64,000 nucleotides of DNA from NCBI RefSeq assembly GCF_000002985.6, contig NC_003283.11:6634001-6698000 (forward strand). Reading direction: 5' to 3'. A program made the position numbers and the translations under genes. This DNA is from Caenorhabditis elegans. Its lineage: Eukaryota > Nematoda > Chromadorea > Rhabditida > Rhabditidae. Below are positions 57,485 through 63,651 of the stretch, one piece after another; the first letter of the stretch is position 1, and every line of letters starts with the position of its first letter. The notes beneath the pieces were generated by a model. The model had not been told where the DNA came from, did no database searches, and was given only the letters and a program-made list of their open reading frames with translations.

Positions 57485-57832
57485 TTAATGAGCCGCAGCA
57501 GTTCCCTGGTGTTGATGGGTCTTGTCTCCGCACTGCTTCTGCTCTGCACAATGACAGTTTGCACACTTGCAGTCTCCCTTACATCCAGCTGGACAGCATT
57601 TTTTCTCACTGGCCTCCTCACAGCAGTACTTCTCACAACACTTGTCTCCACTGCATTCACATTTGTCTCCGCACTTGCATTGCTTGTTTTTGCAGTCTGG
57701 AAAAGTTTTGACTTTAAGAAAAATTTAGAAAGCTTGTTGATTTGCCTGCTATTCTCAAAACCATTTTAAACGTGTCACAATTGTTTTTGAAATCTATAAA
57801 GTATAGATTAACTCACCACACTTGCAAGCCAT
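57485..57832 (-). CDS. mtl-1: Metallothionein-1
   Basis: Two exons (57832-57817, only 16 bases, and 57696-57485) encode 75 residues beginning [14 protein letters not shown]. Cysteines are arranged in CxC, CC and CxCxxC clusters, and the C-terminus ([14 protein letters not shown]) contains histidines; this matches C. elegans MTL-1. It binds zinc, cadmium and copper through cysteine thiolate clusters in the cytoplasm. The gene is known to respond to heavy metals and to insulin signalling; a TGTTTAC DAF-16-type site and a TGATAA GATA site lie within 105 bases upstream. Confidence 0.97.
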
Positions 57833-57934: not shown

Positions 57935-58352
57935 AAGAGGGTGGCCCTGTCACAATGTACAAACTTATGATACTAAAAGAATAGAGATATAGAAGAGACC
58001 CAAAACAATAACAGATAGTTGATTGTGAGTTTGCTCATTGATCTTGAGCACTCTAATCCTTTGCACAATTTTTTGTTTGTTTTTAGAACGTTTTTAGAGA
58101 GACTCCGTTCTAGTATACGATTCAGTCACAGCTCTAGTTTCTGATTTTATCAGTTATTGACAAGGTGTTTGCAACATTCACGTACCATTGATGTGACGTT
58201 TTTAGCACAACATTCATTTAAACACGTGTGTTCGTTCCAAAAAGAATTAGAAAAATATTGTTTTATTTCAATTGACAAGATTGATAAGCGAAAGAATTAT
58301 AGATCGACAATAATTTAGTAGTAGACGTGGGAAAAGTTCACTTGCTCATTGG

Positions 58353-58652
58353 TTATTTCTTTTGCTCAGTCTTCTCGGTTTTTCCTTCACAGCACGATTT
58401 TTTCTCTTCCTCGCAGCAACATTTTTCGACGGTACACTTACACGTTTCTCCACAGGAGCAATTCTTGCAGGCTAAAATAAAAATAGCTAAAAGATGTTTC
58501 CAGTTTTAACAATTTTTACAACCTTGTTTTTTTTTTGAAAAAAAAATCTATTTTTAAAACTTAAAATTAAATCTTGAAAATAATAAATCAAGAATTAAAA
58601 TGTTCAATTCCAAGTTAAAAATTCTGATGTCACCAATCATATGAGAGACCAT
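58353..58652 (-). CDS. Small cysteine-rich protein, metallothionein-like
   Basis: Exon 2 (58471-58353) reads ACKNCSCGETCKCTVEKCCC, then EEEKKSCCEG, and ends in a Lys/Glu/Thr tail. Ten cysteines fall within about 28 residues, in CxxCxC, CxC, CCC and CC arrangements. The exon follows a good acceptor (TTTTATTTTAG). A tiny exon 1 ending at 58634, ATG ATT G|GTGACA, fits the phase. Using ATG 58640 gives 41 residues; an in-frame ATG at 58652 gives 45. A TTTCAG acceptor lies about 20 bases further upstream. As in mtl-1, a phase-1 intron follows a very short first exon. Metal binding is likely but not shown. Exon 2 is strong; exon 1 is tentative. I do not recall a named gene here. Confidence 0.6.
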
Positions 58653-59321
58653 ATTAACAACAAGGTGACGTCTGAAACATCTAACTTTTTTTACCTGATT
58701 TTCAAAATTTATTTCTCAGAGTTCTTTTTTTTTAACTGGACATATAATGTGAAAAATAAAAGAAATTAGGCAAATGCTCTTTTACTACCTCATCTTTTAC
58801 TACGTTGCTCTTTTACTACGGTTTACTCTTTTACTACGGCCGTATTTTTTACTACGTTTTCCAATTTCGATGCGAAAAATAATTTCGAAAAAAATTCAGA
58901 TTGTATTTATTACTGGAAAATACAAGATTGGGGTCGTTTTTCAGAAACAAATTTTGGGCCTAATTTTTTTTTTGAAAATAGCTTATTCGAGGAATCGCCG
59001 AAGTTCCCGACCTGCTATTAAGTGGAATTTGTAGAATGTTTAAAAATACACTCGAAAAAGTAGTTTTCAAGATAAATTTATCTTTTATCGATAAATTTCA
59101 GGTCAAGGGAATGTTTTCACTGGACAACAACGTTTATAAACAGGATATTATTTACAGGCACATTTTTTTCCAGTAGAAATAACTACAAAAAGGGCCATTT
59201 AGTTGTTGATAAGGAGAGTTAACAAAGTTTTCAGAACTAAATATCTGAAAAAGTAATGGAAGCTTCCTACTTCGTACAGCTCGGTTGGTTTCACATATAC
59301 CTTGGAACCGCGGCCGCCACT

Positions 59322-59405
59322 CGCCTGTTTGGAGAAGTGGTAAAGCGCGCGCTCTTCAGTAGAGTCATTGCTGGTTCGAATCTGGATCCATTCAGATTTT
59401 TTTTT
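59322..59405 (+). pseudogene. Degenerate tRNA-like sequence inside the transposon
   Basis: An A-box-like TTGGAGAAGTGG (59329-59340), an anticodon-like arm with loop TTCAGTA closed by CTC/GAG (CAG in the anticodon position), a B-box GGTTCGAATC (59373-59382) and a nine-T terminator (59397-59405) occur in tRNA order. The acceptor stem does not pair and the D- and T-stems pair poorly, so it is not an intact tRNA. It could still be a Pol III promoter unit. Confidence 0.4.
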
Positions 59406-59875
59406 CAAATAGTTTGCACGGGAAAAGTGTTCCTTATCTTAAGCTTACAAGTTTGCGATTGATCAATTTTTCACATTCCCTCTGCCCGAAAAGATATGTG
59501 AGTATATAGAGCCCTACTTGCCGAGTTTCTTAATATTATGCCAAATTACAAAGTTGACATGAATGTTTTCAAAAACAACAGGTTTAGAATTTTTCTACAA
59601 TAACTGATTAGTGCTTAATAAAGTTTCAAAATAGTTTTGTTTGGAAAATTTTCATAAATTTCATTTTCCCGTTATGATATCGTCGGATTCAGTTAAAAAC
59701 CGCTCAGACAGTAGTATATTTCAAAAGTTGGAAAAAGAACACAACTATGAAACTTTCATGTTGATTTCAGAATGAAATTGTAATTATACCTGAAATCTGC
59801 TACAAGGTAACTTTCAAATTCCAACTTTTGATATTCTTTTTTTTTTCATTAGGCCGTAAAAAATCGTTAATCGTA

Positions 59876-60002
59876 GTAAAAGATACAAACTGTAGCAAAA
59901 GATCGAAATTGGAAAACGTAGTAAAAAATACGGCCGTAGTAAAAGATACAAATTGTAGTAAAAGATCGAAATTGGAAAACGTAGTAAAAAATACGGCCGT
60001 AG
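59876..60002. repeat. 63-base tandem duplication in the right arm
   Basis: Two copies of a 63-base unit (AGATACAAA at 59881 and again at 59944) differ at two positions. They carry GATCGAAATTGGAAAACGTA and ATACGGCCGTAGTAAAAG. The left arm has only one partial copy, so the duplication arose after the inverted repeats formed or was lost on one side. Confidence 0.7.
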
Positions 60003-60076
60003 TAAAAGAGTAAACCGTAGTAAAAGAGCAACGTAGTAAAAGATGAGGTAGTAAAAGAGCATTTGCCAAGAAATTA

Positions 60077-61055
60077 TAATTTTCGTTTTATATTTTCATG
60101 AAAAAATTACAAAATAGTAATTTAGAAAGATTGCTGGATTTGAAATATTTCTTTGTTATTTTAAGGTTTGAATTATTTTTCATTTTCATGTTTTTTTTTA
60201 CTTGACTCTATATTTTTAGATTATGAAATTATTCAAAATCATTGCTGAGGCACAACATTTGTTTCTGAATGTTTTTCAGAGCAACTTACCTATGAGAAAC
60301 TGAAAACTGTAAGATTTTACACTGTTCCAATTAAAATTTAAAAATATGTGGGAAGACAGGCATGTTCGCCTGAAGACGTACCTGACAAACTGAAGTGCCC
60401 TATACAAATTCAATAAATTCGAGGCTTTTGTTTGTGAAATTTTGTAGAATTAAAAAATTGAAAGAATCTCTATTATCACTGAATTTATTGTTACAATTTC
60501 ACAATTTTCTCACTTTTCCTTACTATTTTAATTTGAATATTTCAATTTTAAGTTTAAAAAACAAATTTTTAAACTAACTAAAAACACCTGGTCTGTCATA
60601 GATAAACTCCTAATATAATACAAGTATTTAGGCATAAAAACTGACCACATGGACACGGCATGACGGTATGAATCGAAAGCAAATATAGATGTGAAATGAA
60701 GGATTCGTTGAATAGGATTGACTGAACAAGTTTTGGATTGCTTGGACTTGAGGAAAACAAGATCTTATTCTATTTCTCACCTTCTCTGAATCTCTGAATC
60801 TTCCCATGCAATTAGTTATAAGTTTCATGGTTTGATCTAGATACTCTCTATAAAACAAAACACTTGTTGACTTATTTATGGCAATTTGGAGAAAAACAAC
60901 TGGTCAAAAAAACTCTATAGACAGACAACGGGAAGAAATGAGAAATGGAAACGAAATGTGAGGAATTAAAGCTAAAGAGCTTTTGTAAAAACATTGGGAA
61001 AAAAATTATAAAACATTATAAAATGAATTTTTAACTATTATCTAATAAAAAACTA
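60077..61055. other. Intergenic region, ceramidase 3' side
   Basis: About 1 kb, AT-rich, with chance frames only. A run of rc-AATAAA words near 61043-61050 (plus strand TTATTTA/TAATAAAA context) may include the ceramidase poly(A) signal. Nothing else was recognised. Confidence 0.35.
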
Positions 61056-63651
61056 TCAAGTTGGGATATCATCCGTGACAGTTGTTGAGTTTCCATTTGT
61101 ATCAAAAACTGGCACTGCTACTTTGCTGAAAAATTTTAAAGATTTTAGAAACAGTATATTTTAAAAAATATATCACAAAAAACCATTTATCAACACAGAT
61201 TCACGTTCACAAATACATTGCACAAACGACACAAAACAAAAACTGGACAGTACATGGATAAAACTAAAAGGGCATAGACTAAGGCTTCTACGCAGGCTCA
61301 ATAATGCCTACCAGGCACTCTTGTAGGTACACAGGCATGCATTTTTCTTCCTGTGTAGAATGCGTTACAAATACAATTTTCCCTCCGTTAGTTTGATGGA
61401 ATTCTAACAGAGGGATATGCCATATATACTCACTGAGAACGTTCTTTGAGCGAAATGTACGGGAACGAGAAGATCGAGCCGTTCTTGCCCGGAAAATAAC
61501 GGACTGCGGCTGTGTATTTGTGAGTTTTCGTTCTGCTCTCAATATCAATCATCGAGAACATGATGAAAATTGTGTAGCCGGCAAGTCCGGCGAGCAAATG
61601 GAACAGAGCATGGAGGTATGGGGTTCCTGGAAACATCAATTGCAAAAACTTACCTAACACTGAATTGCAAAATTGGTTTTGAAAAACTGTATATTTAATT
61701 TTACTATCTTTGCCCGATCATTACAAAGGTTATCTTGCGAACCTTTAACCGAAGTTTTGAAAAAAGTTTGTTGAAGCTAAGTTCACTGGAGCAAAACTTT
61801 TCTAGGTAAAACAATGCGAAATAGTTCTCAAAATCGAACAAATTTAACGTTTTTTATTGGAAAAGAAAGATTTATATTATTCAACTAGCATTTGAAACTA
61901 ACAGTAGATACTGCCCAATATTTGAAACAACTTATCACTAGATATTTGAAATTTGGTCTTATTAAATGTGAAGTACCTCAGTTTTTTTCAAAAAATTCAG
62001 TATACCAATCACTCACCCAAATAAAGCCAAAAATCGCAGAGAAGACGATCAGCAAACCAGAAGGAAAATGCAACTCCCCAAAGTGCAAGAATTCGACTTG
62101 GAAATGACTCGATGTCTGGGATTCCAGACCTGAAAATTTTTATTTTCATTCAAACAGTCAAATTTGAAATCTTACTGTTTTCCTTCATAGTTTATCACTA
62201 CAGCAGCTGGAATGGAAAACAGCATCAAAGCGATTGCATTGAGATTTGGTTCAAGGAAGCAGAGACCAGATACGAGAGCTGTTACAATTAGAACAACCCA
62301 TCGGACGAGAGTTCTAGAAATTTAAAAGTGCAAAAGCTCACAAATATCTAAACTCACAATCTTTTTGAGAACTTCTCTGGGAACCATTTCATAACTGGAA
62401 TGTAGACGACAAGGAACACTGTTATAATCCAAACTAATGACAGTTCATCGACAAGTTGACCTTGAGAAAAAAGTATTTAGTAAGAAGAGCAAACTACTAT
62501 CAACTTACCAAATAAGTTGAGAGTTGCATGATAATATGTTGAAGCTAATCCATTGAAAGTGAGTAACAACTGAGGGAAAATCAAACCACCGTTCACATCA
62601 TGAAGATATCTTCGAAGAAGCATTATATTGACTAGTGGAAGGACAATGATCGGCAGATTTGTGCACTGGAATTAGTAATATAAATAAATTTCCATATTTG
62701 GTATCAATTTTAGTGACGAACGGGATTTTTTTTAGCTCCACTTAAACCATGAAAAAAACTAGACCACTAAAACTACAATTTCGAAAACCACTAAAATGTC
62801 TTGAATAAAGTTAAAGATGTTTAACTAAAGAAATTTAATATTTAAGACAAAAATTATGTGATGCCCTCGAAATTTTGATATTTCAAGCTTTTTTCGTAAG
62901 TTTTACAACTGAGTACATTCTTCGATTCACACACTATTCCATGTTACCACATTTCCTCTACTTTTTTAATTACTTTCTTACCGCGAAACCCGGTACATTT
63001 TCCAGCACTTTTAGATTTTAGATTTAAAGTTTTTTATCCATTTTGGACATTAATTTTTTTTATTTTATGTAATAGCCGTACCCCGAAAATCTTTTCTGAA
63101 ATGTTTTATTTTTAATTTCATTGGTAGTGGAAAATTGATCAAAACGTGAGGCTAATATGCATTTTCAGCCTTACAATTAGAAAACCACCATTCCCAACTT
63201 CAAATATTTTCTAATTGTAAGTCACAGTTCTTTTTAAAAAATCAGAAACCTCCCCGTTCTAAATTTCTACCATACATATTTTTTTTCCTAAACTTTAGTT
63301 AACACCGAAGCCATACAACATGTTGCTTGGAGACTACACGAAATATTATGCTACAAACAAATATTAGCGAATCGAAAAACGAAACATTTTAAAAGTCCAC
63401 TATGCGCAGAGTTCAATGAGCAATTCGAGATAAAAAGGTTTCTTGAAATTATGAATTGACATTTCTTCATAAATGTAAAACTTATTATCATAATTTTTTT
63501 GAAAACTTTTTCAAAAAAACTTACGAAAAGTATAACTTACTGTATTTGCGAATTCTGCAACATATGGTAATGTCTGATATTTGTAGGCACTTTCACACCA
63601 TGCATGACCAGATTCATACTCAAACCACCGGTTTATACTAGAGCTTTCCAT
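61056..63651 (-). CDS. Alkaline ceramidase
   Basis: Seven exons (63651-63541, 62665-62509, 62460-62358, 62313-62176, 62129-62017, 61626-61434, 61125-61056) encode 294 residues. It begins MESSSINRWFEYESGHAWCE, as alkaline ceramidases do (WCE near the N-terminus). The catalytic metal-site motifs are STYYHATL (Ser/His), QLVDEL (Asp) and PYLHALFH (two His). ADRLLCDFW is also typical, and about seven hydrophobic helices are visible. It should cleave ceramide to sphingosine and fatty acid in ER or Golgi membranes. At the end of exon 6, TTCTCA|GTGAGT can splice to a 22-codon exon; reading on instead gives Gln then stop. TTTTCAG lies one base before the ATG. Possibly W02F12.2 (position from memory). 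Confidence 0.9.
62666..63540. other. Long first intron of the ceramidase gene
   Basis: 875 bases, AT-rich, by far the longest intron of the gene. It may contain regulatory elements; no nested gene, RNA or repeat was recognised. Confidence 0.4.

Follow-up and report, generated by a model that had tools for sequence, protein, structure and literature searches.

Does Caenorhabditis elegans have a third metallothionein-like gene next to mtl-1? The question is raised by a small cysteine-rich reading on the minus strand of a 64,000-nucleotide stretch of chromosome V (6,634,001 to 6,698,000; this whole stretch is called the window, and coordinates are window positions unless otherwise stated), in which an earlier note had proposed a small relative of metallothionein beside mtl-1. 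The metallothioneins of C. elegans are spoken of as two (PMC12779199, PMC11134313, PMC6336089). With a probability of about 0.72, we consider the reading to be part of a real two-exon gene, very probably W02F12.8, which would be an old tandem paralogue of mtl-1 encoding a 44-residue, single-domain metallothionein-like protein.

The cysteines lie in candidate exon 2. After an acceptor ending in TTTTATTTTAG, the minus strand from 58471 to 58353 is read in the frame CC-TGC-AAG-AAT to give ACKNCSCGETCKCTVEKCCCEEEKKSCCEGKTEKTEQKK and a TAA stop, which amounts to 39 residues, counting the split first codon, and ten cysteines. This exon is on the same strand as mtl-1, about 520 bases from the mtl-1 ATG at 57832, and its phase is that of mtl-1 exon 2. 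For comparison, mtl-1 (minus strand; K11G9.6 in papers) has its exon 1 at 57817-57832 (MACKC, phase-1 donor), a 120-base phase-1 intron and its exon 2 at 57485-57696. Cysteine density was counted at HAG acceptor positions after which 38 codons stay open in phase 1. The two strands of the window have 794 such positions; ten or more cysteines occurred at 4 of them, all in candidate exon 2 or mtl-1 exon 2, and the next best position had five. Other loci totalling 99.6 kb, a non-random set chosen for the CxC pattern or for the transposon and from which nine loci with all or part of these genes had been removed, supplied 1,252 comparable acceptor positions with a maximum of six cysteines. The cysteine density of candidate exon 2 is far from chance, and the frame and these counts confirm what the earlier note had claimed of it, namely a ten-cysteine, minus-strand exon on the mtl-1 strand about 520 bases upstream.

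First exons were ranked by donor score, using a donor-site matrix, among readings from an ATG to a phase-1 donor up to 5.5 kb upstream, as far as the window reaches. Fourth of the best 25 is an exon whose coding part (60646-60661, minus strand) reads ATG CCG TGT CCA TGT G|gtcagt, or MPCPC with a phase-1 donor. The first exons of mtl-1 (MACKC) and of mtl-2 (MVCKC), which we take to be T08G5.10, are alike in that each has a phase-1 donor straight after MxCxC. Across the genome (100,286,401 bases, 7 contigs), the pattern ATGNNNTGYNNNTGYGGT gave 35 matches (16 + 19 on the two strands of 100.3 Mb) versus 20 (12 + 8) for a reversed control. These 35 include mtl-1, mtl-2 and the candidate site, and from the 32 others the chance expectation is ∼0.0009 in 5.5 kb of a single strand. 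A possible trans-splice acceptor TTGTTCAG, recognised from sequence alone, is present at 60722-60723 (minus strand), 60 nt ahead of the MPCPC ATG and with no ATG between. Splicing of 60661-60646 to 58471-58353, as predicted, would remove an intron 1 of 2,174 bases (58472-60645, minus strand) and join MPCPC to exon 2 with its stop, (A)CKNCSCGETCKCTVEKCCCEEEKKSCCEGKTEKTEQKK* (58353-58471, minus strand). A poly(A) signal, AATAAA, follows 86 nt past the candidate stop (58262-58267, minus strand).

The predicted spliced protein, MPCPCACKNCSCGETCKCTVEKCCCEEEKKSCCEGKTEKTEQKK, has 44 residues with 12 cysteines (27%) and contains neither histidine nor aromatic residues. It is thus short, with more than ∼25% cysteine in CxC and CC clusters, as is typical of C. 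elegans metallothioneins, and its predicted gene structure has the MxCxC exon 1, the phase-1 intron and an exon 2 opening with xCKN. Cysteines 3, 5, 7, 10, 12, 16, 18, 23 and 24 correspond to all nine domain-1 cysteines of MTL-1, after which come C, CC and a charged Lys/Glu tail. When the candidate, MTL-1 and MTL-2 are aligned, the invariant columns take in all nine of these positions, and the spacing CxCx3CxCx4CC is exact in the candidate and MTL-1 and differs in MTL-2. Against MTL-1 the 44-mer scores 115, a value reached by none of 2,000 composition-preserving shuffles (69.4 ± 8.7), and exon 2 alone scores 96, also with 0/2,000 shuffles. The intron phase, the spacing shared with MTL-1 and the MxCxC first exon therefore support the proposal of a small metallothionein relative beside mtl-1. 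DNA similarity between the exons 2 of mtl-1 and the candidate is limited to one short patch, which suggests that the duplication is old.

The nematode metallothionein signature is KCCx(3)CC. Both MTL-1 and MTL-2 match it, and it is absent from the candidate, where seven residues separate KCC from the later CC (cysteines 32-33). Because this signature and domain 2 are lacking, we have kept the candidate out of the two-domain nematode family. Pfam at E ≤ 10 gave no match for the candidate and likewise none for MTL-1 or MTL-2, and a sequence search of PDB with the candidate alone gave no match. A profile that included MTL-1 and MTL-2 retrieved their own structures (PDB 8aq9 and 8ap5, respectively), which is uninformative on the candidate. 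Metallothionein-like proteins are shaped by metal clusters and not by hydrophobic packing.

Several observations weigh against this gene model and its kinship. Similarity to MTL-2 is weak, since shuffles reach the score in 36 of 2,000 cases for the 44-mer and in 444 of 2,000 for exon 2 alone. If the motif is relaxed to any CxC within a mini-exon of ≤12 codons, 128 kb of strand contains four further cases, or ∼0.17 per 5.5 kb. The donor of the MPCPC exon scores 2.58, as against 5.45 for mtl-1, and C at donor +3, which it has, is rare in C. elegans. Three upstream readings outscore this donor; two are in exons of the neighbouring ceramidase gene, one (MHACVPTRVP) is in what reads as the last ceramidase intron, and none contains CxC.

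W02F12.8 is placed directly upstream of mtl-1 in published work, and supplementary figure S10 of PMC8629381 gives sequence that follows W02F12.8. Neither inspection by eye nor the list of open reading frames (up to 60500) brought to notice another gene-like minus-strand reading between mtl-1 and the ceramidase gene; the candidate should therefore be W02F12.8 and is probably already annotated as an uncharacterised gene. The suggestion that it would be easily missed is therefore doubtful; what appears to have been overlooked is not the gene but its kinship to the metallothioneins. In the open-access papers searched the candidate was not found to be named a metallothionein, no “third metallothionein” was found together with elegans, mtl-3 turned up in one paper, as a mammalian protein, and K11G9.7-K11G9.12, K11G9.13, K11G9.14, W02F12.7, W02F12.9 and W02F12.10 were not found. 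Relevant to the behaviour of W02F12.8 in cadmium is wrt-8, which we take to be a moult-linked gene. W02F12.8 RNA is detected by RNA-seq, and at L3, after growth in 20 µM cadmium, it is down 7.1-fold (−7.1, P 6.6E-20), thirteenth among the most down-regulated transcripts, while mtl-1 in these larvae is up 41-fold; the list of decreases also includes wrt-8, 88% of the changed L3 transcripts are down, and the L4 cadmium lists (fifteen up, fifteen down) do not include W02F12.8 (PMC11066929). Delayed development is a possible cause of the fall, given the listing of wrt-8 and the preponderance of decreases at L3. If the candidate is W02F12.8, this fall, the one published value found, goes against the expectation that it would be induced by cadmium.

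The alternative that survives best, though we consider it unlikely, is a decaying pseudogene: an mtl-1-like duplicate that lost domain 2, had its intron hit later by a transposon and may still be transcribed, with no functional protein resulting. Domain 2 is indeed gone, with no remnant in three frames over the 207 bases past the stop, a 1.3-kb transposon is present in the intron, and the single data set found records no metal induction of W02F12.8. Set against this, all 39 exon 2 residues and both junctions are intact, the transposon is restricted to the intron, and all nine domain-1 cysteines are retained despite strong DNA divergence from mtl-1, which suggests selection on the cysteines.

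The transposon, a fold-back DNA element, spans 58769-60067 (1,299 bases). Its terminal inverted repeats are 103 bp long and match perfectly, and it is flanked by a 9-bp target-site duplication, AAGAAATTA, whose copies occupy 58760-58768 and 60068-60076. We take it to be Mutator-like, going by the 9-bp target-site duplication. Without the transposon and one copy of the target site, intron 1 would be 866 bases, and the added distance may be the reason that the first exon escaped the eye. Genome matching gave at least 67 stretches for the interior and at least 113 for the arm, own copy counted; these are lower bounds and count pieces rather than elements. Stretches at 93-99% identity occur on several chromosomes, the closest three, among the matches listed, being on V. 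A stretch within the element (59272-59408) is also present, at 75-88% identity, in repeats more distantly related, and contains GGTTCGAATC, which resembles a tRNA B box. ARAGORN, run with the bacterial code, found no tRNA in the window, and Rfam at E ≤ 1 recognised no RNA family between 57300 and 61100.

Far less probable is the gene model of the earlier note, in which translation starts at ATGs 58652 or 58640, SL1 is added near 58672 and the product has 41-45 residues with 10 cysteines. The acceptor, the ATG, a GT in phase 1 and, further upstream, a TTTCAG all exist as had been claimed, and the 45-mer scores 96 against MTL-1 (1/2,000 shuffles), a result that comes by way of exon 2; 181 of 2,000 shuffles reach its score against MTL-2. 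The weakness is in the first exon itself (58634-58652, minus strand; MVSHMI), which we rejected as the gene start. Its donor, G|GTGACA, is poor (score −0.5), and of 18,200 sampled positions, 12,349 (67.9%; 6,130/9,100 and 6,219/9,100 by strand) have a phase-1 ATG mini-exon of ≤12 codons whose donor is 40-250 nt upstream. Since such mini-exons sit upstream of about two-thirds of sampled positions, the presence of this one carries no weight. It also lacks the two domain-1 cysteines, of the nine, that the MPCPC exon provides. This start exon, the nearby SL1 site and the ten-cysteine protein are most likely wrong, the MPCPC exon, which is outside the note's coordinates, giving 44 residues and 12 cysteines.

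Least probable of all is that the cysteine-rich product has a different role, perhaps as a structural or Cu chaperone-like peptide, and resembles metallothioneins by convergent composition, for while the unmatched KCCx(3)CC, the different tail and composition, an MTL-2 similarity that on its own is within reach of shuffling and, if the candidate is W02F12.8, the lack of cadmium induction would fit it, convergence accounts poorly for a tandem position on the same strand, the same intron phase, the same MxCxC|xCKN junction and the exact CxCx3CxCx4CC of MTL-1.

Returning to the two-exon metallothionein-like gene, its closest likeness is to MTL-1, as a same-strand neighbour with two coding exons, a phase-1 intron after MxCxC and a nine-cysteine domain 1 with CxCx3CxCx4CC. 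Unlike MTL-1, the candidate has 12 cysteines instead of 19, no domain 2, no histidine and no tyrosine beside the cysteines; its intron is large and transposon-bearing and, if it is W02F12.8, it is reported to go down and not up in cadmium. It shares with MTL-2 the form of exon 1 (MVCKC in mtl-2, with a phase-1 donor) and the CKN, CxC and KCC elements. MTL-2 differs in having 18 cysteines, a second domain and a spacer of six residues, as against three residues in the candidate and MTL-1. The candidate has neither the second nine-cysteine domain nor the interface Tyr/Phe described in PMC11134313, where an M3Cys9 nine-thiolate cluster is described for MTL-2 domain 2 and thought likely for domain 1. 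The products of W08E12.2-W08E12.5, compared by description only, are likewise small cysteine-rich putative zinc metalloproteins with a proposed metallothionein-like action, but they are encoded on chromosome IV and have 120-141 residues and 18-19 cysteines (PMC6336089).

We infer that the protein acts like one metallothionein domain and binds metal. Its 12 thiolates, with no histidine, would wrap about three to four divalent ions or several Cu(I) ions in a single cluster, and its buffering of metal would be basal or developmental, outside the metal-induced response. The gene would not be metal-induced: the mtl-1 enhancer is just behind it, but its proposed start is 2.5 kb from that enhancer, across an intron of 2.2 kb and towards the ceramidase gene, and the one value found for W02F12.8 is a fall in cadmium. 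That enhancer consists of the mtl-1 high zinc activation (HZA) element, ATCAGAAACTAGAGC (58131-58145, minus strand), and a GATA site, TGATAA, beside it at 58147-58152; both sit between the candidate stop and mtl-1, and the distance from the HZA to the proposed candidate ATG is 2,516 bases. The published position of this HZA is −313, and HZA elements act in either orientation from 194 to 2,644 bp away (PMC4333406), so its sharing with the candidate is possible. The fall of W02F12.8 in cadmium argues against sharing. The 489-bp mtl-1 promoter of PMC4333406 would end at 58321, ∼30 bases short of the candidate stop, and reporters built with it would exclude the coding part of the candidate. Tentatively, and at somewhat less than even odds, the candidate may be a third functional C. 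elegans metallothionein, single-domain with 12 cysteines, regulated opposite to mtl-1, insulated from its zinc enhancer despite an intergenic region common to both, and still buffering metal in the metallothionein double mutants on which research in the field depends.

No HZA-like site with ≤2 mismatches was found near the candidate's own start. Within the intron the closest HZA-like sequence, at 60424-60438, agrees at 12 of 15 positions in an uncontrolled comparison, and a TGATAA is 34 bases away from it; in 4 kb the core CANAAAC is found 10 times. Across the genome, HZA-like words are frequent (2,096 with ≤2 mismatches versus 1,490 for the reversed pattern), and 60424-60438 was not counted as a metal-response element of the candidate. 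Outside mtl-1 and mtl-2, the sole perfect match to their HZA core, ATCASAAACTAGAG, is at contig C4, 3822952-3822965.

As to the neighbours, a minus-strand ceramidase gene lies at 61056-63651 (ends set by eye), ∼400 bases upstream of proposed exon 1. Pfam Ceramidase matched two exons at 61.5-62.1 kb (E 1.3e-5 and 3.6e-4), both under the family cut-off; these weak matches fit a location of W02F12.2, a ceramidase (PMC10415181, PMC7693530), beyond the candidate. The match to mtl-2 is at chromosome V 14,018,380-14,018,547, 7.3 Mb from the mtl-1 locus and within the published mtl-2 region (chromosome V 14,018,240-14,020,360; PMC12239621).

If the gene is what we propose, a one-domain third metallothionein-like gene would be an obvious suspect for remaining metal buffering. 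The locus would also allow the choice of a single zinc enhancer between two tandem neighbours to be tested in a natural setting, which is of interest because head-to-head sharing is known for mtl-2 (PMC12239621).
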